35,139 nucleotides of DNA from Chlorobium sp. Its GTDB lineage: Bacteria; Bacteroidota; Chlorobiia; Chlorobiales; Chlorobiaceae. Where the stretch lies: assembly GCA_005843835.1 (NCBI GenBank), contig SZXZ01000037.1, positions 1-35,139 on the forward strand. The letters are read 5' to 3'. Positions 1,929-34,834 of the stretch are shown piece by piece. The position numbers and the translations under genes are program-made. Positions within the stretch are counted from its first letter, which is position 1; each line of letters starts with the position of its first letter. The notes beneath the pieces were generated by a model that was not told the origin of the DNA, did not search any database, and was given only the letters and a program-made list of their open reading frames with translations.

Positions 1929-2274
1929 AGGGAGATTGGATTGCTTTTTAATGATTTCTTATTACCAGGGTTAATTTAGAACAATCGTTTTAGCTAAAAC
2001 AATTTATAAATATTTAAAGACTGTTGATCGATTGCGAGTTGGCTCTTGAAAAAAGCCCACCTTTAATTTGGACTCAATTGTTATAAGATATGTTCAGCGA
2101 TTCGACGAATGATATAAACTACTGCACAATATCCATTTATTATATGGATAACAGTTTAATTTTTTAAGCATTTTTTAGGTTTTCTTTAATCTTCTATTAA
2201 GAGGTAATTCATTAAGATATAGAAATATAAATCAGTAGCACGTATTCCATATTTCAGTTGATTTGAGGAAGGCA
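1929..2274. promoter_or_regulatory. AT-rich divergent intergenic region
   Basis: This 346-bp spacer separates two divergent genes (thioesterase and the first L,D-transpeptidase) and so must hold both promoters. It is strongly AT-rich, more so than the flanking genes. It contains a 7-bp inverted repeat TATCCAT/ATGGATA at 2130-2150 and many A/T tracts. I cannot assign a confident -35/-10 pair. No protein of note is encoded in either strand. Confidence 0.45.
2130..2150. repeat. Inverted repeat TATCCAT-N7-ATGGATA
   Basis: Perfect 7-bp arms separated by 7 bp, about 125 bp upstream of the first L,D-transpeptidase start. There is no T-run after it, so it is not an obvious terminator. It could be an operator or chance in an AT-rich spacer. 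Confidence 0.3.
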
Positions 2275-2997
2275 ATGATTACCAAAAATATTTTGACCCT
2301 ACTCAACAATAAAAACCTCAGCACGAATCGAGTTGTTCAGGCATGGATTATTGGAGGCATGCTTATCCTTGGAGTTTTAGTATGTAATCATCAATCTGCA
2401 ATTACTCAAGAAAACGTCTGCAATATTTTGGTGCTTTGTTCTAAAAATTCCATTTCAAATGAAAATGTCTGCAAGGTTACCCTAATTCCTGAAAATGCTT
2501 CTGATGAGGTTCAGGGACACGCCGATTGGATAGTCAATTCGAAAGACAATCAGGATATGCCGTTTGTAATTCTTGATAAAAAGCGGGCTAAAATTTTTGT
2601 TTTTCAAAAAGATGGAAAAAATCTCGGCTCAGCACCTGCACTTCTCGGTATAGCAATCGGCGACAATTATGTTCCCGGCACCGGACAAAAACAGCTATCA
2701 GAAATCCCGTTCAAAGATCGCACGACTCCTGCCGGCAGATTTATTGCCCGTCTTGGTAAAAATTCGCATGGTGAGGAGGTTTTATGGGTTGACTACGATA
2801 TGGCCATTGCTATTCATGGTGTTGTTACCGGTAATCCTAAAGACCATCGACTTGAGCGCCTGCAGTCTCAAAACCCTAAAGATCATCGCATCTCATTTGG
2901 ATGTATTAATGTGCCGACTAATTTTTATTCTTCAGTCATCAGTCCTTTGTTTACAAGGCGACAAGGGGTAGTGTATGTGCTTCCGGAGACTGCATAA
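2275..2997 (+). CDS. L,D-transpeptidase, YkuD-type domain (first tandem copy)
   Basis: A 240-residue envelope protein of the YkuD L,D-transpeptidase family, which makes 3-3 crosslinks in peptidoglycan or attaches proteins to it. One membrane helix (about residues 19-37, VVQAWIIGGMLILGVLVC) anchors or exports it; the catalytic domain covers about 93-236. The likely catalytic residues are H181 (AIAIHGVV) and C210 in HRISFGCINVP. The arginine usual after the cysteine in YkuD proteins is replaced by asparagine, as in its tandem partner. I prefer the ATG at 2275, preceded by GAGGAAGG at 2265-2272, over a TTG four codons upstream. An oddity is four cysteines in the linker (C38, C49, C55, C66) with a repeated ENVC motif. 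The next gene is a paralogue about 70% identical in the catalytic domain. Confidence 0.85.
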   Translation: MITKNILTLLNNKNLSTNRVVQAWIIGGMLILGVLVCNHQSAITQENVCNILVLCSKNSISNENVCKVTLIPENASDEVQGHADWIVNSKDNQDMPFVILDKKRAKIFVFQKDGKNLGSAPALLGIAIGDNYVPGTGQKQLSEIPFKDRTTPAGRFIARLGKNSHGEEVLWVDYDMAIAIHGVVTGNPKDHRLERLQSQNPKDHRISFGCINVPTNFYSSVISPLFTRRQGVVYVLPETA

Positions 2998-3088
2998 TAT
3001 TTGTTATAATTGTTATTTTTCCTGAAATCTTCATCACTAAGGAACCGATTAAAGGAAAAAAGTATTTTATTATAATACCCTTAAGTAG

Positions 3089-3112
3089 TTCCGCTCCCTA
3101 GTTACTGCGGAA
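3089..3112. repeat. Small inverted repeat between the tandem transpeptidase genes
   Basis: Arms TTCCGC (3089-3094) and GCGGAA (3107-3112) with a 12-nt loop in the 153-bp spacer between the two L,D-transpeptidase genes. There is no T-run on either side, so termination is doubtful. Confidence 0.3.
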
Positions 3113-3150
3113 TAACCAAAAAAAGTAGTAAAACATATTTATTCATAGAG

Positions 3151-3846
3151 ATGAGACGTATTAATCGTTTTTGCTTGACATGGTTGTACAAGGTTGTTAT
3201 TATCGCCGGACTCGTTGTTCTCAGTTTCAATCATGCAGAAGCGAAGGGCAAAAAGGGGGCCGCAGGAAAAGCTTCTCCAGCGTATGTATCCTTAATACAA
3301 GTGCCTGAAGATGTTCGGGAATTTGTAAAAGGGATAGTCAGCTCAAAAGATAATCAGGATATGCCGTTCATAATTCTTGATAAAAAACGGGCTAAATTGT
3401 TTGTTTATCAAAGAGAAGGTAAAAATCTAGGCGGTGCTCCAGCACTTCTCGGTGTAGCAGTAGGTGACGATTATGTTGCGGGCACTGGAGAAAAAAAACT
3501 TTCAGAAATTCCACCGGAAGAGCGCACAACACCCGCCGGCAGATTTAAGGCCCGTCTTGGTAAAAATTCGCATGGCGAGGAAGTACTTTGGGTTGACTAC
3601 GACATGGGCATTGCTATTCATGCCGTTGTAACCAATAATCCGAAAGAACGTCGCCTTCAACGTCTGAAATCTCCCGACCCAAAAGAACATCGTATTTCGT
3701 GGGGGTGTATAAATGTACCCAAGAAATTTTATACAAAAATTGTAAGTCCATCCTTTAAGACCTTCGGGGGAATGGTCTATGTTTTACCCGAGAGCAAGAC
3801 TATGGACGAAGTTTTCGGTACTCCATTACAAACGAGCAGCCTTTGA
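3151..3846 (+). CDS. L,D-transpeptidase, YkuD-type domain (second tandem copy)
   Basis: A 231-residue paralogue of the preceding gene and predicted peptidoglycan L,D-transpeptidase. The N-terminus is a cleavable-looking signal peptide (MRRINRF, hydrophobic core about 14-26, then NHAEAKG), so this copy is probably released into the periplasm whereas the first may stay anchored. A basic, glycine-rich linker (about 32-42) precedes the catalytic domain. Likely catalytic residues are H157 (IAIHAVV) and C186 in HRISWGCINVP. It ends with an extra tail of about 17 residues (KTMDEVFGTPLQ...) absent from the first copy. Close protein and DNA similarity marks a local tandem duplication followed by divergence of the N-terminus. 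It converges on the rqcH gene with about 20 bp between them. Confidence 0.87.
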   Translation: MRRINRFCLTWLYKVVIIAGLVVLSFNHAEAKGKKGAAGKASPAYVSLIQVPEDVREFVKGIVSSKDNQDMPFIILDKKRAKLFVYQREGKNLGGAPALLGVAVGDDYVAGTGEKKLSEIPPEERTTPAGRFKARLGKNSHGEEVLWVDYDMGIAIHAVVTNNPKERRLQRLKSPDPKEHRISWGCINVPKKFYTKIVSPSFKTFGGMVYVLPESKTMDEVFGTPLQTSSL

Positions 3847-19772: not shown

Positions 19773-20342
19773 ATGGGTTTACTTGATGCCGCGATAACAA
19801 AGCATAATGTGCTGGTAACCTCGGTTGACAATGTTTTAAACTGGGCCCGGTTATCCTCCCTATGGCCAATGGGTTTCGGTCTTGCCTGCTGTGCTATCGA
19901 AATGATGGCGACCAACGCTTCTAATTACGATCTTGAGCGTTTCGGTATTTTTCCACGCTCTTCTCCCCGTCAGTCTGATCTTATGATTGTAGCCGGTACC
20001 GTAACCATGAAAATGGCGGAACGGGTTATTCGTCTCTACGAACAGATGCCTGAACCTCGTTATGTGCTTTCCATGGGCAGTTGTTCAAATTGTGGCGGCC
20101 CTTACTGGGAGCATGGATACCATGTCCTGAAAGGGGTAGATCGCATTATTCCTGTAGATGTATATGTACCGGGTTGTCCGCCGAGACCCGAATCGCTTAT
20201 TGGTGGACTCATGAAGGTTCAGGAGTTGATTCGTATGGAGCAGATCGGTGTGTCCAGAGCGGATGCATTGAAAAAGCTGGCAGAAAAAAGTGTTGATCCT
20301 CAATTTGTTATTGAGCTTGAGCGTAAGGCAGCAAGCGCATAA
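19773..20342 (+). CDS. nuoB: NDH-1 subunit NuoB (NdhK), carrier of cluster N2
   Basis: A 189-residue subunit that holds the terminal [4Fe-4S] cluster N2 next to the quinone site. The ligands are the tandem pair C39-C40 ([10 protein letters not shown]), C104 (MGSCSNCGG) and C135 (VPGCPPRPE), with standard spacing. The fold is shared with the small subunit of [NiFe] hydrogenases, such as HupS encoded 11 kb downstream. It lies 28 bp after nuoA. A C-terminal helix of about 30 residues ([20 protein letters not shown]) follows the core. All catalytic residues are intact. Confidence 0.97.
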
Positions 20343-20367
20343 TTAAATAAACAGGCATACTGTAAAG

Positions 20368-20886
20368 ATGGAAGAAGGAAAGGTTTTATCGCAGTCAGTT
20401 CAGCTAAGCGCTGCGGCATACGCAATAATACACGAAAAATTCGGTGCGGCTTTATCAGCTTTTGACAGCAACGAAACCATGCCGTTTTTCGAAGTAATTG
20501 ATATATCGCTATGGCCGGAGATTGCCCTCTTCATGCGCGACCATCCAAAGTTGCGGTTCAATTATATGGCATGTCTATCCGGTGTGGATTTTCAAGCAGA
20601 AGATAAAGTTGGTATTGTCTGCAATATCGAATCACTCGGTCAATTCAATCATAAACTTGCGGTTAAAGTCAAGTGTCCTCGCAGCGGTGGATCAATTCCA
20701 AGTGTTGCCTATGTATGGCATACTGCTAACTGGCATGAACGTGAGGCTTATGATATGTTCGGCATGCTCTTTACCGGTCATCCGGATATGAGACGAATTC
20801 TCTGTCCTGACGATTGGGAAGGATATCCGCTTCTTAAGGATTATAAGGTTCAGGAGACTTATCACGGAATAAAGGTACCCTACTAA
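20368..20886 (+). CDS. nuoC: NDH-1 subunit NuoC (NdhJ)
   Basis: A 172-residue 30-kDa-type subunit in the connecting fragment, structural and without cofactor. The signature [11 protein letters not shown] is at 122-132 and is followed by [22 protein letters not shown], which is the family's hallmark end. It is separate from nuoD, unlike the fused NuoCD of E. coli. The N-terminal 35 residues are less conserved. It begins 25 bp after nuoB, without a clear Shine-Dalgarno. Confidence 0.96.
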
Positions 20887-20917
20887 CAGTGTTTTCAATA
20901 GTAAAAGCAGCTCACGT

Positions 20918-22120
20918 ATGCAGGAATTAGATATAGCTGGACAGGGTTCAATCAGGGTTACCCGAAAAAGCAATAACGTTGTTATCCTTGAAAAGGACCT
21001 TGCAACCGAGCAGATGGTTCTCGCCATGGGTCCACAGCATCCTTCAACCCACGGTGTTCTCAAGCTCGAGTGTCTGACTGATGGCGAGGTGATTACCGAA
21101 GCAGTTCCTTATCTCGGGTATCTGCACAGGTGTTTTGAAAAGTGTTGTGAAAATGTCGATTATCCCGCTATTGTGCCCTATACCGACCGACTCGACTACC
21201 TGGCAGGCATGAACAGCGAATTTGCATACGCAATTGCAGTTGAAAAGCTTCTTGATGTCGAAATTCCTCGCCGCGTTGAGTTTATCAGGGTCATTGTTGC
21301 CGAACTCAACAGAATAGCCTCTCACCTTGTTGCTATTGGAACTTATGGAATAGATCTTGGTGCATTTACTCCCTTTCTTTTTTGTTTCCGTGACCGTGAG
21401 CACATTCTTGGACTTCTGGAATGGGCATCCGGAGCTCGAATGCTCTATAACTATATATGGGTAGGTGGTCTTGCCTACGATGTTCCCTCAGACTTCAACA
21501 AGAGAGTCAAGGAATTCGTCGACTATTTCAGGCCACAGACCGTAGAACTCTACAAACTTCTCACCGAAAACGAAATCTTTGTCAAACGTACAAAGGGAAT
21601 CGGCATCATGCCGGCAGACGTTGCCATAAACTACGGCTGGTCTGGTCCAATGCTTCGCGGTTCCGGCGTTGATTGGGATTTAAGAAGAAACGATCCTTAC
21701 TCAGTCTATCCAGAGCTGGATTTTAAAGTACCTCTTCCTGATGGCAAGGTATCAGATATTGGCGACTGTCTTTCACGTCACCTTGTCCGTGCACTTGAAA
21801 TGGAGGAAAGTCTTAAAATTATCGAGCAGTGCATTGATAAAATGCCTTCCTCTGAGGGATTCAACCCACGATCCGCAGTTCCAAAACGTGTTCGTCCAAA
21901 AGCAGGCGAAGTATACGCTCGTGCAGAGAACCCCAGGGGTGAGCTTGGTTTCTATATTCAAAGCGATGGAAAATCAACAAAACCTCTTCGTTGCAAAGCG
22001 CGTTCGTCCTGTTTTGTTAATCTATCAGCAATGAAAGACCTTTCAAAGGGTCAGTTGATTCCCGATCTTGTCGCCATTATCGGCAGTATCGATATCGTTC
22101 TCGGGGAGGTTGACCGATGA
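20918..22120 (+). CDS. nuoD: NDH-1 subunit NuoD (NdhH)
   Basis: A 400-residue 49-kDa-type subunit that with NuoB forms the quinone-binding cavity. The first loop [12 protein letters not shown] is at 37-48, with the conserved quinone-site histidine. [19 protein letters not shown], the [10 protein letters not shown] loop and the terminal [12 protein letters not shown] are all typical. It is homologous to the large subunit of [NiFe] hydrogenases but lacks their nickel-binding cysteine pairs. The stop overlaps the nuoH start by four bases (ATGA), so translation of NuoH is coupled. An N-terminal extension of about 30 residues precedes the core. Confidence 0.97.
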
Positions 22121-23235
22121 CTTTAGCAGCATTGCCGCAATTTAGCATACCTTTACTTATGGGTAACAGTCTCAATGTATGGTCGGAAGCTCTTGTTGGA
22201 TTCAGTCCAATGGGTTTGCCTCTCGGCATGGTTATTCTAGCCGCCATACCCCTTGTATTTATAGCGCTTTACTCGCTTACCTACGGCGTGTATGGTGAAC
22301 GTAAAATATCAGCCTTCATGCAGGATCGCCTCGGTCCAATGGAAGTTGGTAAATGGGGTATCCTCCAGACGATTGCCGACATTCTGAAACTTCTGCAGAA
22401 GGAAGACATTGTTCCAACTTCAGCCGACAAGTTTCTTTTTGTTATCGGCCCAGGAGTCCTGTTCGTTGGTTCCTTTCTGGCTTACGCAGTACTGCCTTTC
22501 AGCTCTGCCTTTATTGGTGCAAGTCTTAATGTAGGTCTCTTTTTTGCCATTGGCATTGTTGCTATCGAAGTTGTCGGTATTCTTGCAGCAGGATGGGGTT
22601 CAAACAATAAATGGTCACTGTACGGAGCTGTCCGAAGTGTGGCGCAGATTGTCAGCTACGAAATTCCTGCCGGTATAGCATTGCTATGCGGAGCCATGAT
22701 GGCAGGCACTCTTGATATGCAGAAAATCACCATGCTTCAGTCTGGTTCTTACGGGTTTGCACATTTCTATCTGTTTCACTCTCCGATTGCCTGGTTACCC
22801 TTCCTTATCTACTTTATTGCGTCGCTTGCTGAGGTAAACCGTGCACCGTTCGATATTCCAGAAGCTGAGTCAGAGCTTGTGGCTGGTTATTTTACAGAAT
22901 ATTCAGGCATGAAGTTCGCCGTTATATTCCTTGCCGAGTACGGTAGCATGTTTATGGTGTCAGCCATCATTTCAATAGTGTTTCTTGGAGGCTGGAACTC
23001 ACCTCTTCCTAATATCGGATCCTTTGCTCTTAACGAGTGGACAAACGGGCCGGTGTGGGGCGCGTTCTGGATTATCATGAAAGGTTTCTTCTTTATTTTT
23101 GTACAGATGTGGCTTCGCTGGACTCTTCCACGTTTAAGGGTTGACCAGCTCATGTATCTGTGCTGGAAAGTTTTGACCCCGTTTGCCTTTGTCAGCTTTG
23201 TGCTGACGGCCATCTGGGAAATATATGTTCCGTAA
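22117..23235 (+). CDS. nuoH: NDH-1 subunit NuoH (NdhA)
   Basis: A 372-residue membrane subunit with about eight helices that forms the quinone entry channel and links electron transfer to proton pumping. Conserved cytoplasmic loops are visible: [15 protein letters not shown] (60-74), [11 protein letters not shown] (87-97), and [17 protein letters not shown] (239-255), which carries the acidic residues thought to couple quinone chemistry to protons. A GGAGG at 22106-22110, inside the end of nuoD, can serve as its ribosome binding site. Length is slightly longer than E. coli NuoH because of an N-terminal extension. Confidence 0.97.
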
Positions 23236-23278
23236 AAGATTTCAACAGTCAATGCAGGAAAGAAATGACGTATAGCTT

Positions 23279-23905
23279 ATGAGTGAGTATTTCAGGAATA
23301 TAAAAACCGGCGCAGTCACCATTGCAACCGGCATGGGAATCACCCTGAAGCATTTCTTCAATGCACTCAATCGCAAGGGCGATGCCGGTGTTGATGATGT
23401 CGACTATTTCCGTCAGGTTGATGGTCTGGTTACCCTGCAGTATCCACGTGAGGTTATTCCAACACCTAAAAACGGACGTTATCGCCTTTACAACAATATT
23501 GAAGATTGTATTGGCTGCGGTCAGTGTGTTAGAGCCTGTCCTATATCATGTATAATGATTGACACCATAAAGGTCGCACCGGATGACCTGGCGGTTTGTG
23601 GTAAAACTTCAGACGGTCAGCAGAAAAAATTCTGGGTTCCGGTTTTCGATATTGATGTGGCTAAATGCATGACCTGCGGTATGTGTACAACCGTATGTCC
23701 AACAGAATGTCTTGTGCATACACCAGTCAGCGACTTTTCAGAGTTTGACCGCAGCAATATGCTGTATCATTTTGGAAATCTCACTCGCCTCGAAGCTGAA
23801 GGGAAACGCAAAAAGCTGGCTGATATTCAGGCTAAAGCTCAAGCCGAAAAAGAAAAAAAGGCTGCTGAAGCTGCAGAGAATGCTACAAACAAGGACGGAG
23901 AATAA
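23279..23905 (+). CDS. nuoI: NDH-1 subunit NuoI (NdhI), 2[4Fe-4S] ferredoxin-type
   Basis: A 208-residue iron-sulfur subunit carrying clusters N6a and N6b. The two motifs are CIGCGQCVRACP (C77, C80, C83, with C87 belonging to the partner cluster) and CMTCGMCTTVCP (C130, C133, C136, with C140). In a complex lacking NuoEFG this subunit is the outermost recognised cluster carrier and therefore a likely docking point for an external donor such as ferredoxin. A 40-residue tail rich in Lys, Ala and Glu (from about 172) extends past the usual end and probably forms an exposed helix. AGGAAAG lies about 26 bp upstream, too far for a good ribosome site. Confidence 0.96.
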   Translation: MSEYFRNIKTGAVTIATGMGITLKHFFNALNRKGDAGVDDVDYFRQVDGLVTLQYPREVIPTPKNGRYRLYNNIEDCIGCGQCVRACPISCIMIDTIKVAPDDLAVCGKTSDGQQKKFWVPVFDIDVAKCMTCGMCTTVCPTECLVHTPVSDFSEFDRSNMLYHFGNLTRLEAEGKRKKLADIQAKAQAEKEKKAAEAAENATNKDGE

Positions 23906-23933
23906 GTGAACTTCTTAATGCGCTCGAATTACT

Positions 23934-24455
23934 ATGAGTAACCTGACATATACGGTCATTTTCTATCTCTTTGCGGCAATCACCGTCTTTTCTGCTGCAT
24001 TTGTGGTGTTTTCGCGAAATGTTATCTATTCCGCTTTTTCACTGCTGTTTACATTTTTTGGTGTTGCAGCCCTTTATGTGTATCTGAGTGCCGATTTTAT
24101 TGCTGTAACCCAGGTTGTGGTCTATGTCGGCGGTATTCTCGTTCTTCTTCTTTTCGGTGTCATGTTTACGAAAAGCATCATGAATACAGATCTTAAAAGT
24201 GATGTTCTCCATATCGTACCCGGAACATTAATAGTCGCTGGTATTATTGGAGCCTTGCTGTATACCTTCTATACTACGCACGGCTGGATGCCATCCGAAA
24301 CTCAACTTCATGGCAGCGTAGTCGAGCGGATCGGTTTTGAAACTATGTCACATTATGTTCTGCCGTTTGAAATGGTCTCCATACTGCTGCTTGCGGCACT
24401 TATTGGAGCAGCATTTCTTGCTCGTTTCGATAAGCCGGACAATAAAAAATCATAA
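23934..24455 (+). CDS. nuoJ: NDH-1 subunit NuoJ (NdhG)
   Basis: A 173-residue membrane subunit with five helices. The central third helix contains the conserved AVTQVVVYVGGILVLLLFGVM stretch (split here around residues 62-80), whose pi-bulge is implicated in coupling in known complexes. No cofactor is present. The start ATG is 28 bp after nuoI. Its stop codon lies next to a GTG in the frame of nuoK, although nuoK probably starts a few codons later. Confidence 0.94.
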   Translation: MSNLTYTVIFYLFAAITVFSAAFVVFSRNVIYSAFSLLFTFFGVAALYVYLSADFIAVTQVVVYVGGILVLLLFGVMFTKSIMNTDLKSDVLHIVPGTLIVAGIIGALLYTFYTTHGWMPSETQLHGSVVERIGFETMSHYVLPFEMVSILLLAALIGAAFLARFDKPDNKKS

Positions 24456-24467
24456 GTGTATAATACC

Positions 24468-24785
24468 ATGGAGCATCTGATACCAATAGGACTCAATCAC
24501 TATCTGACTATATCGGCCTTTCTGTTCGGGTTTGGACTCTTTGCTGTCATGACACGCAAAAATGCCATCGTCGTTCTTATGGGAGTTGAACTCATCCTTA
24601 ATGCCGCAAACATCAATTTCCTGGCATTTTCAAAGTTCAATGGAGGGATAGCAGGAGTAATGTTCAGTCTCTTTATTATTGTTATTGCAGCAGCTGAAGC
24701 AGCTATAGCATTAGCCATTGTCATTAATATTTTCAAAATATTCAAGAGTGTCGATGTATCAAGTATAGATACTATGAAAGAGTAA
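24468..24785 (+). CDS. nuoK: NDH-1 subunit NuoK (NdhE)
   Basis: A 105-residue three-helix antiporter-like subunit. The two conserved buried glutamates are E41 (MGVELILNAANINFLAFS) and E77 (IIVIAAAEAAIALAI), matching the pair essential for proton transfer in E. coli NuoK (E36 and E72). I start at the ATG at 24468, giving MEHLIPIGLNHYL, because the family begins there; a GTG at 24456 directly after the nuoJ stop is possible. The C-terminal 15 residues are soluble. Confidence 0.95.
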   Translation: MEHLIPIGLNHYLTISAFLFGFGLFAVMTRKNAIVVLMGVELILNAANINFLAFSKFNGGIAGVMFSLFIIVIAAAEAAIALAIVINIFKIFKSVDVSSIDTMKE

Positions 24786-24845
24786 CAGGACGATCAGGCC
24801 CAATTTTCAGATTTTAATTTTTTTCGTGTAAACATCACAAGGAAC

Positions 24846-27104
24846 ATGCACAGTTTAATTCAGTTATCAATAGTCGTACTGCTGCTGCCGCTGCTCTCGT
24901 TTGTAATTCTTATCTTTTTTAATCGCAGGCTTCCGCGAAGAGGCGATTTTTTAGGAGTTGGAATACTTGGTACAGCATTTGCAATATCCGCCTACATCTT
25001 CTGGACGGTTATTGTACAGACTTATGATCCGGCATTTAAGGTAGCATGGGATTTTACCTGGATTGATTTAGGCAAGGTACCAGGAATCGGTCCCCTGCAA
25101 ATCAAAATGGGTATCGTCATCGACAACCTCACAGCAATAATGCTGGCGATGGTTACTCTCATAAGTTTGCTTGTCCATCTTTACTCTACAGGGTATATGG
25201 CGGGAGACAAAAATTATGGAAGGTATTTCGCTTTTCTTGGAATATTCACCTTCTCCATGCTGGGCATTGTTCTTTCAGACAACCTGTTCTCTATCTATAT
25301 CTTCTGGGAGCTTGTCGGTCTTTCATCATATCTGCTCATCGGCTTCTTTTTTGAAAAAGACAGTGCTGCAGACGCTCAGAAAAAGGCCTTTCTTGCCAAT
25401 CGCGTCGGTGATATCGGCATGTGGCTTGGTATTCTGATTCTGTATTCACAGTTCCATACTTTCAGCTTCGACCAGATCTATGCCAACCTCGCGGCAGGCA
25501 AGTTTACCATGTCGAACGCCTGGCTTACAGCTGCAGGTATTCTTCTCTTTATGGGTTGTGTCGGCAAATCAGCGCAGTTCCCTCTCCATATCTGGCTTCC
25601 TGATGCTATGGAAGGTCCAACGCCTGTTTCGGCTCTGATACATGCTGCTACCATGGTTGCAGCAGGTGTATATTTTGTTGCCCGCATATTTGTTCTGCTT
25701 ACACCCGATGCGCTCCACGTCATTGCCTTCATCGGTGCATTCACAGCTTTTATGGCAGCAACGATAGCAATCACCCAGAACGACATCAAAAGGGTTCTGG
25801 CATACTCTACAGTATCACAGTTGGGTTACATGGTTCTTGGTCTTGGTGTTGGAGCATATTCAGCCGCTCTTTTCCACCTTGTTACGCATGCATTTTTCAA
25901 AGCCTGTCTTTTTCTCGGTTCAGGTGCTATCATCCATGCCATGCATCACGAACAGGACATGCGCTGGATGGGTGGATTGCGCAAACACATGCCATGGACG
26001 TTTGCAACCTTTACCCTTGCAACACTTGCTCTTGCAGGACTTCCATTAACCAGCGGATTCATGAGTAAAGATGCAATTCTTGCCGGTGCTATTGGTTTCG
26101 CCAATGCTGAAGGCGGGGGAGTATACTACCTGATTCCGGTTCTCGGATTCTTTTCCGCGATGTTGACCGCATTTTATATGGGTCGTCAGATCTGGCTGGT
26201 GTTCTTCGGCGAAAGCCGCACGCATCTGAAGCCTGCAGATAACCATCACAGTGCACATCACGCCCATGGCGATGATCATGATACTCACGGAGCTCATGAG
26301 GTTCACGAAGTTTCATGGAACATGCGGGCACCGCTGGTTATTCTCGCTGTACTATCCGTTTTCATTGTCTACTCCCCGAACCCGCTCGATGGTGCAGAAG
26401 GCTGGTTCATGAAGATGATCAAGACACCTGCAACAGTTGTCGGCCCGGCTAACCATAACTGCGCAGTACAACCAGTCAAGTCCGCGGCCCCGCTTATGTC
26501 CGAGGTACTTCCATCGGTTGCGGCACATGGTGCAACTGATTCTCCAGCTGAAGCTGTTTCTGAACACGGAACTCCTAAGGCGAGCGAACATACGTTTGCT
26601 GATGCTCGTCAGGCTGAGATAGCTCATGCCGCCCATGCCGCTCATTTTCCGGCAATTTATATATCAAGCATTATGGTGGTGCTTGGTATAAGTCTGGCCC
26701 TGGTTGCCTATGTCTTTAAAATTATTGATCCCGATAAAACAGCCGAGACTATTCGTCCACTCTACCTCTTTTCGCTTAACAAATGGTATTGGGACGAAAT
26801 TTACGAGGCAACATTTATTAAAGGCTCTGTTGTTCTGTCTAAAATGCTCTCATGGTTCGATACCAATGTTATTGACGGCATCGTCAACGGCGTAGCCTTC
26901 ATTGTCAAAAAGGTAGCATTTGCCAATAACAGTTTCGATAAATATGTAGTGGACGGACTGGTTAACTTTACTGCTTTTTCTGTCAACACTACAGGTGCTG
27001 TTTTGCGGAAATTTCAGACGGGCAAGGTTCAGACCTACGTGGTGATGCTCCTTGTTGTTGTCTTCGGTTATTTTGTCTTTTATTTTACACGACTGATCTA
27101 TTAA
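24846..27104 (+). CDS. nuoL: NDH-1 subunit NuoL (NdhF) with histidine-rich insertions
   Basis: A 752-residue antiporter-like subunit, the distal proton pump with a long lateral helix. Key residues are E155 in FWELVGLSSYLLIGF and K241 in CVGKSAQFPLHIWLPDAMEGPTP (split at the lysine), both central to proton transfer in the family. It is about 140 residues longer than E. coli NuoL. Two inserts explain this: residues 460-487, with ten histidines in 28 positions between helices, and an Ala/Pro/His-rich stretch at about 535-605 before the lateral helix region. The C-terminal segment (about 640-752) ends with an anchoring helix. AAGGA lies just upstream of the ATG. Confidence 0.96.
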   Translation: MHSLIQLSIVVLLLPLLSFVILIFFNRRLPRRGDFLGVGILGTAFAISAYIFWTVIVQTYDPAFKVAWDFTWIDLGKVPGIGPLQIKMGIVIDNLTAIMLAMVTLISLLVHLYSTGYMAGDKNYGRYFAFLGIFTFSMLGIVLSDNLFSIYIFWELVGLSSYLLIGFFFEKDSAADAQKKAFLANRVGDIGMWLGILILYSQFHTFSFDQIYANLAAGKFTMSNAWLTAAGILLFMGCVGKSAQFPLHIWLPDAMEGPTPVSALIHAATMVAAGVYFVARIFVLLTPDALHVIAFIGAFTAFMAATIAITQNDIKRVLAYSTVSQLGYMVLGLGVGAYSAALFHLVTHAFFKACLFLGSGAIIHAMHHEQDMRWMGGLRKHMPWTFATFTLATLALAGLPLTSGFMSKDAILAGAIGFANAEGGGVYYLIPVLGFFSAMLTAFYMGRQIWLVFFGESRTHLKPADNHHSAHHAHGDDHDTHGAHEVHEVSWNMRAPLVILAVLSVFIVYSPNPLDGAEGWFMKMIKTPATVVGPANHNCAVQPVKSAAPLMSEVLPSVAAHGATDSPAEAVSEHGTPKASEHTFADARQAEIAHAAHAAHFPAIYISSIMVVLGISLALVAYVFKIIDPDKTAETIRPLYLFSLNKWYWDEIYEATFIKGSVVLSKMLSWFDTNVIDGIVNGVAFIVKKVAFANNSFDKYVVDGLVNFTAFSVNTTGAVLRKFQTGKVQTYVVMLLVVVFGYFVFYFTRLIY

Positions 27105-27145
27105 GAGGGATTTACTTTTAATCTGAAAACTTACAGATACGGAAC

Positions 27146-28774
27146 ATGCTGAGTTTAATTGTTTTTCTGCCTATTATTGCCGGTCTGGTTATTCTTGCCG
27201 TGCCTTCTTCGCAAAAGCAGATAATCAGAATTGTTTCATTGCTTGCGGCTCTTGCCCAGGGAGTGCTGGCAGTTCTGATCTGGCGAGCTTATGATCCATC
27301 ACTGCCTGGAATAACAGCAGGACCGGGAGGGAGTCCGCTTGGTTCATTCCAGTTTGTTGAAAAGCTTCCATGGATCAGCCTCAAACTTGGCGGTTTAGGT
27401 TCGCTAAACATCGAGTACTTCCTCGGTGTCGACGGAATATCGGTCACCATGGTCATCCTGACAGCTTTGATATCGGCCATTGGCGTCCTTTCAAGCTGGA
27501 CTATACAGAAACAGGTTAAAGGATACTTTATCCTTTATAACCTGCTTGCATCAGCAATGATGGGCTGTTTTGTCGCACTTGATTTCTTTCTTTTCTATGT
27601 GTTCTGGGAGCTCATGCTTCTTCCGATGTACTTCCTTATCGGTATCTGGGGAGGTCCAAATCGCGAATATGCAGCTATCAAGTTCTTCCTTTACACCTTG
27701 TTCGGCTCTGTCTTTATGCTGCTTGTCATGATCGGCTTATACTTCAGCGTCATCGACCCTGTTACAGGCAATCACACCTTCAGTCTTGTGGCAATGGCGA
27801 ACCAGGCAAACTATATCAAGACAGCCATTCTTGGACCGGATAATGTCATGTGGCGATATGTAGCCTTCAGCGTTCTTTTTGTCGGCTTTGCTATCAAGGT
27901 GCCAATGTTCCCGTTCCATACCTGGTTGCCCGATGCTCACGTTGAAGCCCCAACTCCTATTTCAGTTATTCTTGCCGGTGTGCTTCTTAAGCTTGGCACG
28001 TATGGCATGATGCGTATCAACTTCCCGCTTTTCCCTGAAGTCTTTCATGCTTCGATGTATGTCATCGGTATTTTCGGTGCCATAAATATTATTTATGGAG
28101 CGTTCTGTGCATTAGCACAGCAGGATCTTAAAAAGATGGTTGCATACTCATCAATTAGCCATATGGGCTATGTATTGCTTGGGCTTGCCGCAGGTAACAG
28201 TGAGGGTATGCTTGGTGCACTCTACCAGATGTTCAACCATGGCACTATCACAGCCATGCTCTTCCTTCTTGTCGGCGTTATCTACGATCGTGCCCATACC
28301 CGCCAGATCGACAAATTCGGTGGTCTTGCATCCTATATGCCGGTTTATGCCGCAGTTGTCACTGTAGCATGGTTCGCATCTCTTGGTCTTCCAGGTCTTA
28401 GCGGATTCATTTCCGAAGCCTTTGTCTTTGTCGGTGCCTTCAGTTCTGAAACAACACGTTACATCGCAATGGTATCAGTTCTTGGTATTGTATTCGGTGC
28501 AGCCTATCTGCTCTGGTCACTGCAGAGAATGTTTCTTGGAAAACGTAAACCCGATGCAGCCTACGATCTTGTTGTCGGTGATGACGGTCACGAACATATT
28601 CACTTCCACGACTGGAAAGGTAAAATTGATCTTGACGGCCGAGAACTTGTCATGCTCGTGCCACTGGTTATCATCACCATTTTCCTTGGCATCTACCCGA
28701 TGCCGATTATCGGCATGTTGACGTCAAGTATCAACAAGCTTGTAGAAGTGCTTTCACCCTTGGCGATGAGGTAG
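27146..28774 (+). CDS. nuoM: NDH-1 subunit NuoM (NdhD)
   Basis: A 542-residue antiporter-like proton-pumping subunit with about fourteen helices. Conserved residues are E155 in YVFWELMLLPMYFLIG and K251 in VGFAIKVPMFPFHTWLPDAH. HVEAPTPISVILAGVLLKLG and FGGLASYMPVYAAV are typical loops. A loop before the last helices carries a small histidine cluster (H482, H484, H486, H488) not usual in the family. It begins 41 bp after nuoL with no clear Shine-Dalgarno. Confidence 0.97.
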   Translation: MLSLIVFLPIIAGLVILAVPSSQKQIIRIVSLLAALAQGVLAVLIWRAYDPSLPGITAGPGGSPLGSFQFVEKLPWISLKLGGLGSLNIEYFLGVDGISVTMVILTALISAIGVLSSWTIQKQVKGYFILYNLLASAMMGCFVALDFFLFYVFWELMLLPMYFLIGIWGGPNREYAAIKFFLYTLFGSVFMLLVMIGLYFSVIDPVTGNHTFSLVAMANQANYIKTAILGPDNVMWRYVAFSVLFVGFAIKVPMFPFHTWLPDAHVEAPTPISVILAGVLLKLGTYGMMRINFPLFPEVFHASMYVIGIFGAINIIYGAFCALAQQDLKKMVAYSSISHMGYVLLGLAAGNSEGMLGALYQMFNHGTITAMLFLLVGVIYDRAHTRQIDKFGGLASYMPVYAAVVTVAWFASLGLPGLSGFISEAFVFVGAFSSETTRYIAMVSVLGIVFGAAYLLWSLQRMFLGKRKPDAAYDLVVGDDGHEHIHFHDWKGKIDLDGRELVMLVPLVIITIFLGIYPMPIIGMLTSSINKLVEVLSPLAMR

Positions 28775-28823
28775 AGATAAATTATTAGGTTTGAATGAGG
28801 TAAAAGAATAAACGAAGAGAATT

Positions 28824-30359
28824 ATGTTCGAGCTGCCATCAGGTGCTGAAATTCAAAGTATCATTGCAAGTCTTAACGCAAGCGTTGGATTTTTTATACC
28901 TGAAATTTATCTGTCCGTGCTTTTTATGCTCCTCATCGTTATCGATCTGGTTGCAAAAGGCAAGAAAAACAATCTGCTCTCCATAACATCCCTTCTCGGG
29001 CTGGGGGGCAGCTTATTCTTTATCTACCAGCAGCACTTCCTGCCGGCGCAAGAGCTCTTTTTCGGGATGTATGTTCTCGACGAATTTGCGCTCTTCTTTA
29101 AATACTTCTTTGTGCTTTCCGGCATGATTGCCGTTATCATTACAATGGCAGACGAGCAGTTTGACACAGAAGTAAAAAGCATGGGCGAGTATTATGCCCT
29201 CATCATCGCTATGGTCATCGGGATGATCATGATGGCATCTTCTGCCGATATGATGATGATTTTCCTTTCAATGGAACTTGTCAGCTTTACAGCTTACATC
29301 CTTACCGGTTATTTCAAACGTAATCCCCGTTCTTCTGAAGCAGCGCTGAAATATCTGGTTTACGGTGCGGTTTCATCCGGCCTGATGGTCTACGGTTTTT
29401 CCCTTATATACGGCCTCACCGCCCAGACCAATATCATCAACATTAGCTCTGAGCTTTCTCAACACGGATACGACCCCCTGCTGATGATCCTTGCTTCGCT
29501 TCTTATTTTAGCAGGCTTCGGCTACAAAATTGGAGCGGTTCCATTTCACTTCTGGGCTCCCGATGTTTACGAAGGTGCTCCAACCCCGATTACGGCCTAT
29601 CTATCTGTAGCATCAAAAGCAGCTGGGTTCGCACTGCTCATGCGCTTCTTCTACATAGCAATTCCTCACGGTGGCCCTGTATATGAGGACATTATAGGCC
29701 TCAATTGGGTTACGCTGCTGATTATTCTTTCAGTAGCATCCATGATCTACGGTAACGTAGTGGCCCTGTGGCAGAAAAACGTCAAGCGTCTCCTTGCATA
29801 TTCATCTATTGCCCATGCAGGCTACCTTCTGCTCAGCATTATCGTGTTAGATGCATTCGGCACCCAGGCAACTCTGTTTTACCTGCTTTCGTATTTCCTT
29901 ATGAACTTTGGCGCATTCTATATTGTCATTCTTATAGCCAATAAAACAGGCAGCGAAAACCTCGAAGATTACCGAGGTCTCGGTAAACAAATGCCCCTCG
30001 CCGCTGCAGCTCTGACGGTATTCTTGATTTCCCTCGTAGGTCTTCCACCTACCCTCGGCTTTATCGGTAAACTGATGATATTTTCAGCACTACTGGCAAA
30101 AGGATCCATCTATATTTGGCTTGCACTTATCGGCATCATGACCAGCGTCATATCCCTTTACTACTATATGCTGATTCCTCTTAACATGTACCTCCGCGAA
30201 TCACCGGAATCTGAAGAAAAAAACATGAATCCAGGCATGCTGTCACAAGTACTTATAGCAGTCCTGATGTTCCTGACCATTTACTTCGGCCTCTTCTTCC
30301 AGCCGCTGTCCGACTTCGCAAAATACTCATCAGCAATGTTCGGCTTAAAACTATATTAA
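28824..30359 (+). CDS. nuoN: NDH-1 subunit NuoN (NdhB)
   Basis: A 511-residue antiporter-like subunit, last gene of the NDH-1 operon. Proton-path residues are E151 in IFLSMELVSFTAYIL and K235 in AGFGYKIGAVPFHFWAPDVYEG. The loop GAPTPITAYLSVASKAAGF and LIGLV-like DFRGLGK equivalents (ENLEDYRGLGKQMPLAA) are as expected. GAAGAGA precedes the ATG at a plausible distance. A structured terminator begins 45 bp after the stop, which closes the operon. No nuoE, nuoF or nuoG follows. Confidence 0.97.
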   Translation: MFELPSGAEIQSIIASLNASVGFFIPEIYLSVLFMLLIVIDLVAKGKKNNLLSITSLLGLGGSLFFIYQQHFLPAQELFFGMYVLDEFALFFKYFFVLSGMIAVIITMADEQFDTEVKSMGEYYALIIAMVIGMIMMASSADMMMIFLSMELVSFTAYILTGYFKRNPRSSEAALKYLVYGAVSSGLMVYGFSLIYGLTAQTNIINISSELSQHGYDPLLMILASLLILAGFGYKIGAVPFHFWAPDVYEGAPTPITAYLSVASKAAGFALLMRFFYIAIPHGGPVYEDIIGLNWVTLLIILSVASMIYGNVVALWQKNVKRLLAYSSIAHAGYLLLSIIVLDAFGTQATLFYLLSYFLMNFGAFYIVILIANKTGSENLEDYRGLGKQMPLAAAALTVFLISLVGLPPTLGFIGKLMIFSALLAKGSIYIWLALIGIMTSVISLYYYMLIPLNMYLRESPESEEKNMNPGMLSQVLIAVLMFLTIYFGLFFQPLSDFAKYSSAMFGLKLY

Positions 30360-30729: not shown

Positions 30730-31815
30730 ATGCAAAGTAATCAGACCTTTGCCGATGTATTCAAGGCCGGGGGAGTAAGCCGCAGAGATTTTCTGAAGTT
30801 CTGCTCTCTTACCTCCGTATATCTCGGCCTTTCACCCTCGATGGTGCCAAACATTGTTGAGGCCTTGGAAAAAAAGCCCAGAACGCCTGTAATATGGCTT
30901 CATGGTCAGGAGTGTACCTGTTGTTCAGAATCGTTTATCCGCTCTTCACATCCTACTATTGAGGATATTATTTTCAACTTGATATCGCTTGATTACGATG
31001 ATGTGCTTAGCGCAACGGCTGGCCATCAGTTGGAGGATGTTCGTCGCAAGACCATGAAGGACTACAAAGGCAAATACATCCTTGCAGTCGAAGGCAACGT
31101 ATCTATAAAAGACGATGGTGTTTATTGTATGGTAGGCGGAGATTCATTCCTTAATACCCTTAAGGAAACTGCTGCCGATGCTGCTGCGATTATTGCCTGG
31201 GGTGCCTGTGCTTCATTTGGCTGCGTACAGAATGCTCATCCTAATCCATCTGGTTCTGTTCCAATATCCGATGTTATCAAAGACAAGCCTATCATTAAAG
31301 TGCCAGGTTGTCCGCCTATTTCTGAGGTTATGACTGGTGTTGTTACCCACTTCCATACGTTTGGAACCCTTCCTGAACTTGACCGATTCGGTCGCCCTAA
31401 AGCCTTCTACAACACACGTATTCACGACAAATGCTATCGCAGGGCTTTCTTTGAGGCCGGCATGTTTGTCAGGAGCTTTGATGACGATGCGACAAGAAAA
31501 GGGTGGTGCCTCTATAAAATGGGATGCAAAGGCCCGACTACGTATAACTCATGCTCTAAGATACAGTGGAATGGAGGAACCAGTTTTCCTATCGGCTCCG
31601 GTCACCCGTGTATTGGATGTTCTGAGCCGAACTTCTGGGACAAGGGGCCTTTCTACACCAGGCTTGCTGAAGTTCCATTCCTCGGCAGTGACAGTAACGC
31701 CGACAAGATAGGCGTGATTGCCGTTGGTGCAGCTGCAGCAGGTGCTGCCGCTCATGCAGCGATTACAGCGGTCAAAAAGGCAAAAGCAGGCACTGAAGAT
31801 AACGACAATGCATAA
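30730..31815 (+). CDS. hupS: Uptake [NiFe] hydrogenase small subunit (HupS/HyaA), group 1, six-cysteine proximal site
   Basis: A 361-residue electron-transfer subunit of a membrane-bound H2-oxidising hydrogenase. The twin-arginine motif SRRDFLK (17-23) starts a Tat signal, with probable cleavage after A45. Proximal cluster ligands are C62, C65, C160 and C194. Two extra cysteines, C64 (ECTCCSES) and C165 (ACASFGCVQ), give the six-cysteine set of the [4Fe-3S] cluster of O2-tolerant enzymes. The distal cluster uses H232, C235, C260 and C266; the medial one C275, C294 and C297. A C-terminal Ala-rich helix (about 327-345) anchors it to the membrane. GGAGGT lies just upstream. Similarity to E. coli HyaA runs the whole length. 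First gene of hupSLC. Confidence 0.96.
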
Positions 31816-31830
31816 CCCACGGAGTAGCAA

Positions 31831-33549
31831 ATGGCCAAAAAAATAGTTGTTGATCCGATACCCCGTATTGAGGGGCATCTACGAATAGAGGCAAAACTGA
31901 ATGATAGTAATGTTATTGAAGATGCCTACAGCAGTGGCACAATGTGGCGCGGTATAGAGGTTATACTCAAAGGCCGGGACCCAAGGGATGCATGGGCATT
32001 TACAGAGCGTATCTGTGGTGTCTGTACAACAGTGCATGCTCTTGCTTCGGTTCGGTGTGTTGAAGATGCACTTGGTATTGATATTCCGGTTAATGCACGA
32101 ATCATCAGGAACCTGATGAATGCGACTCAGGTTACCCAGGACCATCTGGTTCACTTTTATCACCTTCATGCTCTGGACTGGGTTGATGTTGTCAGCGCTC
32201 TCAAAGCAGATCCGAAACAGGCTTCTGTTATAGCGCAGAGTATATCATCGTGGCCAAAATCATCTGTAGGTTATTTCAAGGATCTTCAGCAGCGCCTTGT
32301 TGGTTTTGTCGAAAGCGGTCAGCTTGGGATTTTTTCGAACGGCTACTGGGGTCATCCGGCATACAAGCTTCCGCCTGAAGTGAATTTAATTGCTGTAGCT
32401 CACTATCTTGAGGCTCTGGATTTCCAGAAAGAGATCGTCAAGATTCACACTATATTTGGAGGCAAAAACCCGCATCCGAACTATCTGGTTGGCGGTATGG
32501 CTTGCGCTATTGATCCTAACAAAGATACAGCTATCAATATCGAGCGCCTCTCGATGATTAAAAAAATCATCGACGATACTACTGCGTTTATTGACCAGGT
32601 TTACATTCCTGATCTTATAGCGATTGCTGGATATTACAAAGGATGGCTTCATGGAGGCGGACTCGGTAACTACCTCAGCTATGGCGATTTTCCCGAAACA
32701 ACGCTGGCTGATTTCAAAACTCTGCTTTGGCCTCGAGGTGCGATTCTCAACAAGGATCTCAAGACCGTTATTGATGTCGATCCAAGGGATGCATCACAGG
32801 TTACTGAAGAGGTCAGTCACAGCTGGTACACCTACTCTAAGGGGGATGCAAAGGGACTTCATCCATGGGATGGCGAGACAAGCCCTAAATATACCGGTCC
32901 TAAACCTCCATTTGAGCACCTCGATACCGACAAAAAATACAGCTGGCTTAAGACCCCGCGCTGGAAAAACCATCCAATGGAAGTTGGTCCGCTTGCCCGC
33001 GTGCTGATAGCTTATGCTAAAGGCGATCCAATGATCAAGGATACTGTTGGTATGGTGCTTTCTAAACTTGAGGTCGGACCCGAAGCTCTCTTTTCAACAC
33101 TTGGCCGCACGGCAGCGAGAGGTATTGAATGCAAGCAGACTGCAGGCTTCATGCGCCATTATTATGATCAGCTTGTAGCCAACATCAAAACCGGTGATTA
33201 TCGCACCTTCAACAGCGATCGCTGGGAACCTTCCACCTGGCCTGCCGAGTGCAAGGGATTCGGTTATACTGAAGCTCCACGTGGTTCTCTCGGTCACTGG
33301 ATTCATATCAGCGACCAAAAGATTAAGGAATACCAGATTGTGGTGCCTTCCACCTGGAACGCCTCTCCACGTGATGCCAATGGCAATTCGGGCGCATACG
33401 AGTCAGCACTGAAGGGGACTCCCATGATTAATCCTGAACAGCCACTTGAGATTCTCAGAACAGTGCATTCATTTGATCCGTGCCTTGCCTGCGCTTCTCA
33501 TCTCTTCGATATGAACGGTAACGAGATTACAACGGTTAAAATCGTTTAA
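31831..33549 (+). CDS. hupL: Uptake [NiFe] hydrogenase large subunit (HupL/HyaB)
   Basis: A 572-residue catalytic subunit that splits H2 at a Ni-Fe(CN)2CO centre. Nickel ligands are C62 and C65 in ERICGVCTTVHALAS and C551 and C554 in DPCLACASH near the end. Maturation requires proteolysis after H557, removing a 15-residue tail (LFDMNGNEITTVKIV), the job of HupD. The internal sequence HYLEALDFQKEIVKIH and FGGKNPHPN is typical of group 1 enzymes. It has no signal of its own and is co-exported with HupS by the Tat route. GGAG at 31821-31824 is its ribosome site; it lies 15 bp after hupS. Confidence 0.97.
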   Translation: MAKKIVVDPIPRIEGHLRIEAKLNDSNVIEDAYSSGTMWRGIEVILKGRDPRDAWAFTERICGVCTTVHALASVRCVEDALGIDIPVNARIIRNLMNATQVTQDHLVHFYHLHALDWVDVVSALKADPKQASVIAQSISSWPKSSVGYFKDLQQRLVGFVESGQLGIFSNGYWGHPAYKLPPEVNLIAVAHYLEALDFQKEIVKIHTIFGGKNPHPNYLVGGMACAIDPNKDTAINIERLSMIKKIIDDTTAFIDQVYIPDLIAIAGYYKGWLHGGGLGNYLSYGDFPETTLADFKTLLWPRGAILNKDLKTVIDVDPRDASQVTEEVSHSWYTYSKGDAKGLHPWDGETSPKYTGPKPPFEHLDTDKKYSWLKTPRWKNHPMEVGPLARVLIAYAKGDPMIKDTVGMVLSKLEVGPEALFSTLGRTAARGIECKQTAGFMRHYYDQLVANIKTGDYRTFNSDRWEPSTWPAECKGFGYTEAPRGSLGHWIHISDQKIKEYQIVVPSTWNASPRDANGNSGAYESALKGTPMINPEQPLEILRTVHSFDPCLACASHLFDMNGNEITTVKIV

Positions 33550-33561
33550 AAGGAGTCTGTT

Positions 33562-34245
33562 ATGGGGAGATTAATTGAAGAAATCTATGTCTGGAGGCTG
33601 CCTGTCAGGTTGTATCACTGGATCAATGCCTTGTGCACCGTAGCTCTCTTTGGAACGGGTCTGTATATTGCCTTTCCTTTGTTCAATCCGCCCCTTGGTG
33701 AAGCGGTATTTTACAGGGGGATGTCTTGGTGGAGGTATATCCATTTTGCCTCTGCATTTATTTTTACCGCCAACTTTCTTTTCCGCATGTACTGGGCGGT
33801 GTTCGGCGGAGATAAATATGGACGATTCGGCGGATTCAGACCATGGTCGCCTTCGTGGTGGGGCAAACCATTCCGTGAGCAGGTTGAGTCATATCTTTTC
33901 TTGCGGTCGAAAGAGCCGAACTATGTAGGGCATAACCCTGTCGCAGCTTTAGCCCACTTTTTGTTCATTTTCTGTGGGTCGAGCTTTATGATATTTTCAG
34001 GGTTAGCCATGTATGGCGAAAACAATCCGGGCGGGTTTAATTCAGTCTGGTTCGGTTGGATGATACCGCTTTTAGGTGGCAGCTACACTCTGCATTGGGC
34101 GCATCATCTTATGGCTTGGATTTTCCCGATTTACCTTATTATGCATCTTTACGCAGTTTTCCGTCACGATGTGGTAGATCGCACCAGTGTTACCTCTTCG
34201 ATAATTACAGGATATAAGCATAAGGTCGAAGAAGAACCTGTCTGA
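33562..34245 (+). CDS. hupC: Hydrogenase cytochrome b subunit (HupC/HyaC)
   Basis: A 227-residue diheme cytochrome b that anchors HupSL to the periplasmic face of the membrane and passes electrons to the quinone pool. Four helices are visible. Likely heme-ligand histidines are H19 (LYHWINA), H61 (YIHFASAF), H181 or H182 (HWAHHLMAW) and H195 (IMHLYAVFRHD), and the loop GHNPVAALAHF is as in HyaC. AGGAG at 33551-33555 precedes the start; it lies 12 bp after hupL. A strong terminator-like hairpin follows, 46 bp after its stop. Confidence 0.95.
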   Translation: MGRLIEEIYVWRLPVRLYHWINALCTVALFGTGLYIAFPLFNPPLGEAVFYRGMSWWRYIHFASAFIFTANFLFRMYWAVFGGDKYGRFGGFRPWSPSWWGKPFREQVESYLFLRSKEPNYVGHNPVAALAHFLFIFCGSSFMIFSGLAMYGENNPGGFNSVWFGWMIPLLGGSYTLHWAHHLMAWIFPIYLIMHLYAVFRHDVVDRTSVTSSIITGYKHKVEEEPV

Positions 34246-34360: not shown

Positions 34361-34834
34361 GTGAAGTATAATCGTATCAATATCATAGGACTGGGAAATG
34401 TTCTTTACGGCGATGAAGGATTTGGAGTATCAGCAGTCAACAGCTTACAGGAATCTTCCTCTTTTCCGGATTCTGTTCACTTTATTGATGGTGGAACTCA
34501 GGGGATTTATCTGCTCGATTTCATAGAGTCAGCTGATGCCGTGATTGTTTTCGATGCACTTATTCCTCTCGATTATGACCGGCAGGTTTATGTTTATTGG
34601 AACGAAGAACTTCCTGACTTTATCCATCGCAAAATGTCATCTCACCAGATGGGCTTCAGCGAAATGCTCGGCATAGCCAAACTGCACGGCAAAATGCCAA
34701 AAGAGATTGTGATGATAGGAGCACCACCCAAAGATCTAGAACTCAACATAGGATTAAGTCCCGAGCTCGCCCTACTTTTGCCGATAGCTGTAGAAGAGGG
34801 AAGGGCAATCATCAACAGCTGGATAACAGAGTAG
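34361..34834 (+). CDS. hupD: Hydrogenase maturation protease HupD (HyaD/HybD family)
   Basis: A 157-residue endopeptidase that removes the C-terminal tail of HupL once nickel is inserted. The nickel-sensing residues are E19 (GNVLYGDEGFGV), D65 (VIVFDALIPL) and H95 (KMSSHQMGF), at the positions known from HybD. The start is GTG at 34361, as the family begins with INIIGLGN a few residues later; no Shine-Dalgarno is evident. It is separated from hupC by a terminator-like hairpin and converges on folE. The general maturation genes hypABCDEF are not in this window. Confidence 0.93.
   Translation: MKYNRINIIGLGNVLYGDEGFGVSAVNSLQESSSFPDSVHFIDGGTQGIYLLDFIESADAVIVFDALIPLDYDRQVYVYWNEELPDFIHRKMSSHQMGFSEMLGIAKLHGKMPKEIVMIGAPPKDLELNIGLSPELALLLPIAVEEGRAIINSWITE

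Follow-up and report, generated by a model that had tools for sequence, protein, structure and literature searches.

A group 1d-type uptake hydrogenase with the six-cysteine proximal-cluster signature in a Chlorobium genome

The window, a stretch of 35,139 nucleotides of Chlorobium DNA, carries four hydrogenase genes on one strand, in the order hupS, hupL, hupC and hupD (Table 1). A nuo gene cluster lies upstream, and neither inverted repeats nor terminators were found in the gap between nuoN and hupS when it was searched for them. This arrangement recurs in other genomes, with nuoN preceding hupS in 51 of the 72 loci whose upstream sequence extends over 700 bases or more. In another part of the window (2263-3846), two tandem, similar open reading frames of 244 and 231 aa look secreted and, by eye, L,D-transpeptidase-like.

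Table 1. Features of the hydrogenase locus and its upstream neighbourhood, in window positions
Feature	Position	Strand	Description
nuoB to nuoN	19773..30359	+	nuo gene cluster upstream of hupS; named by ORF inspection only; outside the hydrogenase
hupS	30730..31815	+	[NiFe]-hydrogenase small subunit; 361 aa; TIGR00391, E 1.6e-153; six-cysteine proximal-cluster set
Codons C62-T63-C64-C65	30913..30924	+	Hyd-1 C17, C19, C20; C64 is the first supernumerary Cys
Codon E121	31090..31092	+	Hyd-1 Glu76
Codons C160 to C165	31207..31224	+	Hyd-1 C115, C120; C165 is the second supernumerary Cys
Codon C194	31309..31311	+	Hyd-1 C149
hupL	31831..33549	+	Large subunit; 572 aa; NF007550, E 1.4e-226; PDB matches
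hupC	33562..34245	+	b-type cytochrome of the hydrogenase; passes electrons on to quinone; above cut-off for TIGR02125 (E 2.1e-65)
hupD	34361..34834	+	Endopeptidase for hydrogenase maturation; starts with GTG; above cut-off for TIGR00072 and just under it for TIGR00140

The cysteines of HupS occupy residues 25, 62, 64, 65, 133, 160, 165, 194, 235, 260, 266, 275, 294 and 297. The initial annotation had equated six of them (62, 64, 65, 160, 165 and 194) with the proximal-cluster set of E. coli Hyd-1 (17, 19, 20, 115, 120 and 149), and this correspondence proved exact: HupS matches both C. necator HoxK (5mdj_S; E 1.8e-138, query 46-356 against chain 1-311) and Hyd-1 (3uqy_S; E 2.1e-133, query 46-352 against chain 1-307) over gap-free stretches of equal length, so that the numbering is offset by precisely 45. 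The Tat signal that had been suspected in the preceding residues is recognized by TIGR01409 at residues 16-45. In an alignment of 11 sequences, the columns of C64 and C165 hold cysteine in HoxK, HyaA, the Azospirillum and Rhizobium proteins and one Bacteroidota protein, and glycine in all four standard (4C) references, as the initial annotation had stated for positions 19 and 120 of such enzymes. Likewise, E121, part of an LAVEGN motif, aligns with the glutamate of the six-cysteine (6C) rows, as expected of a Glu76 equivalent, where the four 4C rows have aspartate. A displacement of C64 or C165 from positions 19 and 120, which had been named beforehand as the outcome that would speak against the signature, was looked for in this alignment and did not appear; together with the PDB matches, the alignment rules out that the two residues are misaligned. 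A chance origin of the signature is excluded because HupS is homologous over its full length and the signature is conserved across 84 rows from Chlorobia.

The large subunit contributes two CxxC motifs (C62/C65 and C551/C554), a glutamate, E59 within ERICGVC, equivalent to Glu73, and a histidine, H215, equivalent to His229; for the roles of these two residues we follow PMC3940037, according to which Glu73 is typical of O2-tolerant enzymes and its replacement weakens the O2 tolerance of S. enterica Hyd-5. Residue 59 is glutamine in 6/6 4C references. Glutamine also occurs here in a number of 6C rows, namely both Neomarinimicrobiota, one Chlorobia protein (G087), four from Bacteroidota and eight others, and the large-subunit Glu73 is therefore supportive, but not diagnostic on its own. 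Moreover, the best PDB match of HupL is the O2-sensitive, standard (4C) hydrogenase of A. vinosum (3myr; 785 bits), followed by Hyd-5 (783 bits) and Hyd-1 (729 bits), which means that the large subunit is not nearest to an O2-tolerant one. The host of that enzyme is, like Chlorobium, an anaerobic phototroph. An Isp-type, A. vinosum-like enzyme of group 1e, as this top match might suggest, is nevertheless ruled out by the small subunit, its cysteines and E59: the A. vinosum enzyme has glutamine at the Glu73 position, its small subunit matches HupS far more weakly (337 versus 465 bits), and the gene adjacent to hupL encodes the cytochrome b HupC.

To place HupS in a phylogenetic context, we computed a tree of 72 rows in which the columns of C64, E121 and C165 were masked. 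A single branch (100/97) parts the 4C from the 6C proteins, with the 4C rows being long-branched and their mutual relations unsure. HupS falls on the 6C (group 1d) side of this branch, in line with the placement that the initial annotation had proposed to examine by a tree. This side also harbors the Acidobacteriota, Pseudomonadota and Bacteroidota, which form one clade each, and the Neomarinimicrobiota (Fidelibacterota). The Chlorobia proteins constitute one clade (100/96) that is joined to two Neomarinimicrobiota sequences (L124, L125; 100/97). These are their nearest relatives outside the class, with six cysteines and 71-74% identity, compared to 54-59% for Bacteroidota, although their large subunits have glutamine at residue 59 where Chlorobium HupL has glutamate. 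Chlorobia HupS therefore does not simply follow the phylum and may have been transferred between phyla.

Within the class, HupS is found in 77 of 98 genomes, and wherever one of the six positions is readable in the 84 Chlorobia rows, some genomes being counted twice, it is a cysteine. Close relatives of HupS are 94-96% identical, and those that are named belong to Chlorobiaceae; the named ones were retrieved with a pattern requiring CC and are unusable for counting 6C frequency. This breadth, together with the recurrent nuoN neighbourhood, rules out a strain-specific or contaminant gene, and the six-cysteine state is inherited in an old Chlorobia lineage rather than specially acquired by this strain. 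There are exceptions to its presence. In one single-contig Chlorobiaceae genome (G016; L074, G016:C1:1357500-1364500), hupS is split between frames, with hupL, hupC and hupD readable, and in another genome (G020), which has a cydA-type oxidase, a search for HupS gave no match. HupS was also absent when looked for in two further families of the same order, f3 and f4 (G088 to G097). Their genomes encode FMO and COX1-type oxidases, and they may be aerobic; O2 exposure alone is thus no explanation for the retention of HupS.

Taken together, the six cysteines, E121, the masked-tree placement, E59 and the combination of a Tat signal with a b-type cytochrome partner support the assignment of HupSLC as a membrane-bound uptake hydrogenase of group 1d, that is, of the six-cysteine, predicted [4Fe-3S] type. 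The O2-tolerant-type reading of the initial annotation is thereby backed by alignment, tree and large-subunit glutamate. Its implied surprise at finding this signature in an anaerobe, by contrast, is not warranted, as green sulfur bacteria carry it as a rule: a 2015 survey found only 6C enzymes in this group and anaerobes among the 6C group (PMC4486115), and a 2021 study, which found group 1d HyaB in 82% of the Chlorobium populations, proposed that it supplies electrons to the reaction centre (PMC8125076). A group 1d enzyme was likewise reported for Ca. Chlorobium masyuteum (PMC8302410), and HydDB labels the group with both aerobic respiration and oxygen-tolerant anaerobic respiration (PMC5037454). 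These Chlorobia enzymes (HyaAB/HupSL; PMC8125076, PMC8302410) are of the same organism class and enzyme type as HupSL and differ from it by ordinary sequence divergence only. HupS is one more member of the known 6C set, and its gene is ordinary.

The best characterized enzymes for comparison, C. necator MBH (HoxKGZ) and E. coli Hyd-1 (HyaABC), share the six cysteines, Glu76, Glu73, His229 and the cytochrome b partner with HupSLC, and their small subunits are 56-60% identical to HupS. In C. necator MBH, replacement of C19 or C120 by glycine reduces O2 tolerance (PMC10583674). Unlike these systems, the Chlorobium enzyme resides in an anaerobic phototroph, its O2 tolerance is a prediction from sequence, and HyaF/HoxQ and, essentially, HyaE/HoxO are lacking, so the locus is not of the proteobacterial MBH operon type (hox/hup/hya). 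The 6C marker was reportedly also the subject of a 2012 paper by Pandelia and colleagues, which PMC4486115 cites.

The host genome (2.09 Mb in 140 contigs, 88.7% complete) encodes the FMO protein (FmoA) and therefore belongs to a green sulfur bacterium. The initial description of the host as a presumed strict anaerobe needs qualifying, as the genome encodes a cbb3-type oxidase: one contig (C96, locus L081, 17-3884, minus strand) carries ccoN and ccoO, both complete, together with ccoG and a short ccoP for a single-haem protein of 153 aa, with CcoN belonging to the TIGR00780 family (E 3e-160). Such cbb3 clusters, including a CcoP of 138 aa, have been published for green sulfur bacteria (PMC10158934). 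A cydA gene, present in 49 of 98 Chlorobia genomes, was not found in the host genome. Among 67 Chlorobiaceae genomes, each at least 90% complete, a cbb3-like COX1 accompanies hupS in 53 of 59 cases, compared to 2 of 8 genomes without hupS (raw Fisher p = 2e-4). Upon correction for ancestry on a tree of the FMO gene, however, five independent contrasts are left, of which about two agree, none disagrees and three show no difference; linked retention of hupS and cbb3 is thus not significant, and five contrasts cannot reach significance. The initial suggestion that the enzyme oxidizes H2 at oxic-anoxic boundaries, or that its cluster serves high-potential operation, is plausible and gains some support from the cbb3-type oxidase genes of the host.

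Our preferred explanation, to which we assign a probability of roughly 0.75, is that HupSLC is a clade-inherited group 1d enzyme with a [4Fe-3S]-type cluster that oxidizes H2 in the periplasm. Judging from homologous crystal structures, C64 and C165 would ligate the proximal [4Fe-3S] cluster, which would be able to donate two electrons at physiological potential, and an attack by O2 would therefore end in a readily reactivated state. Electrons would leave via HupC to menaquinone, a cytochrome bc complex and the reaction centre, and the main uses may be photoautotrophy and the recycling of nitrogenase H2, with the 6C cluster possibly enabling the enzyme to survive, and perhaps to help consume, O2 that leaks into the chemocline. 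Four points count against this explanation. The literature searched yielded no spectroscopy, electrochemistry or growth experiments that address how well a Chlorobia hydrogenase tolerates O2; the best PDB match of HupL is an O2-sensitive enzyme; families f3 and f4 lack HupS despite their oxidase genes; and HyaF/HoxQ is missing from the class and HyaE/HoxO essentially so, an objection that is weak given the distribution of HyaF/HoxQ in other 6C genomes.

This distribution bears on the idea that the signature is decorative, with the cluster maturing as an ordinary [4Fe-4S] cubane when HoxO and HoxQ are lacking. HyaF/HoxQ (PF04809) was absent from all 98 Chlorobia genomes searched, and HyaE/HoxO yielded just two marginal matches (G070 and G095, the latter without HupS) that are probably thioredoxins; in addition, maturation has been doubted for a cyanobacterium lacking both factors (PMC5186783). 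Yet HyaF/HoxQ is encoded in 16 of 16 6C genomes from Pseudomonadota and in 0 of 29 others (20 Bacteroidota, seven Acidobacteriota and two Neomarinimicrobiota). HyaF/HoxQ thus marks a lineage and is probably not needed by 6C enzymes in general; its absence is diagnostic neither of maturation under anaerobic conditions nor of a cluster that does not work, and we regard a cubane in HupS as highly improbable. It also seems improbable, if less so, that the cluster is a phylogenetic relic of a 6C enzyme from an O2-exposed ancestor, now without a selected function beyond stable H2 oxidation. Lineage alone would indeed predict the six cysteines, which are fixed across the Chlorobia clade and its sisters; but identity among the Chlorobia proteins falls to about 77% while both supernumerary cysteines stay invariant, a pattern that speaks for ongoing selection, and the nesting of some 4C Firmicutes among 6C enzymes (PMC4486115) suggests that the cysteines can be lost.

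The cluster could also be kept for high-potential operation and not for O2, as a redox up-shift that biases the enzyme towards H2 oxidation, in a chain of quinone, bc complex and reaction centre where it never meets O2. The expected acceptor, menaquinone, does not rank among the high-potential quinones, which counts against this proposal, as does the fact that 57 of the 59 hupS-bearing Chlorobiaceae genomes of at least 90% completeness encode a cbb3 or bd oxidase, so that O2 is probably met. No terminal oxidase was detected in the other two, O2-tolerant enzymes show an overpotential requirement (PMC4747160), and PMC4486115, which places many phototrophs and nitrogen metabolizers in the 6C group, leans towards a redox up-shift; in view of these points, we consider a purely redox-related role possible, albeit on the doubtful side. 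Conversely, the 6C hydrogenase and the cbb3 oxidase might form an H2-fuelled, O2-consuming chain that protects the cells in the chemocline, which would imply an O2-tolerant enzyme whose [4Fe-3S] cluster matures without HoxO and HoxQ. This proposal is tentative and, in our estimate, unlikely to hold in full, and the same applies to the order envisaged for the chain, from HupSLC through menaquinone, the bc complex and cytochrome c to cbb3.

Chlorobia have kept the cluster in a mostly O2-free life and have no HoxQ, the proteobacterial factor, which would make them a good test case for whether [4Fe-3S] clusters serve O2 tolerance or redox tuning. Should the enzyme prove truly O2-tolerant, the 6C signature would not mark aerobic life, and burning H2 could allow green sulfur bacteria to clear O2 from the chemocline.
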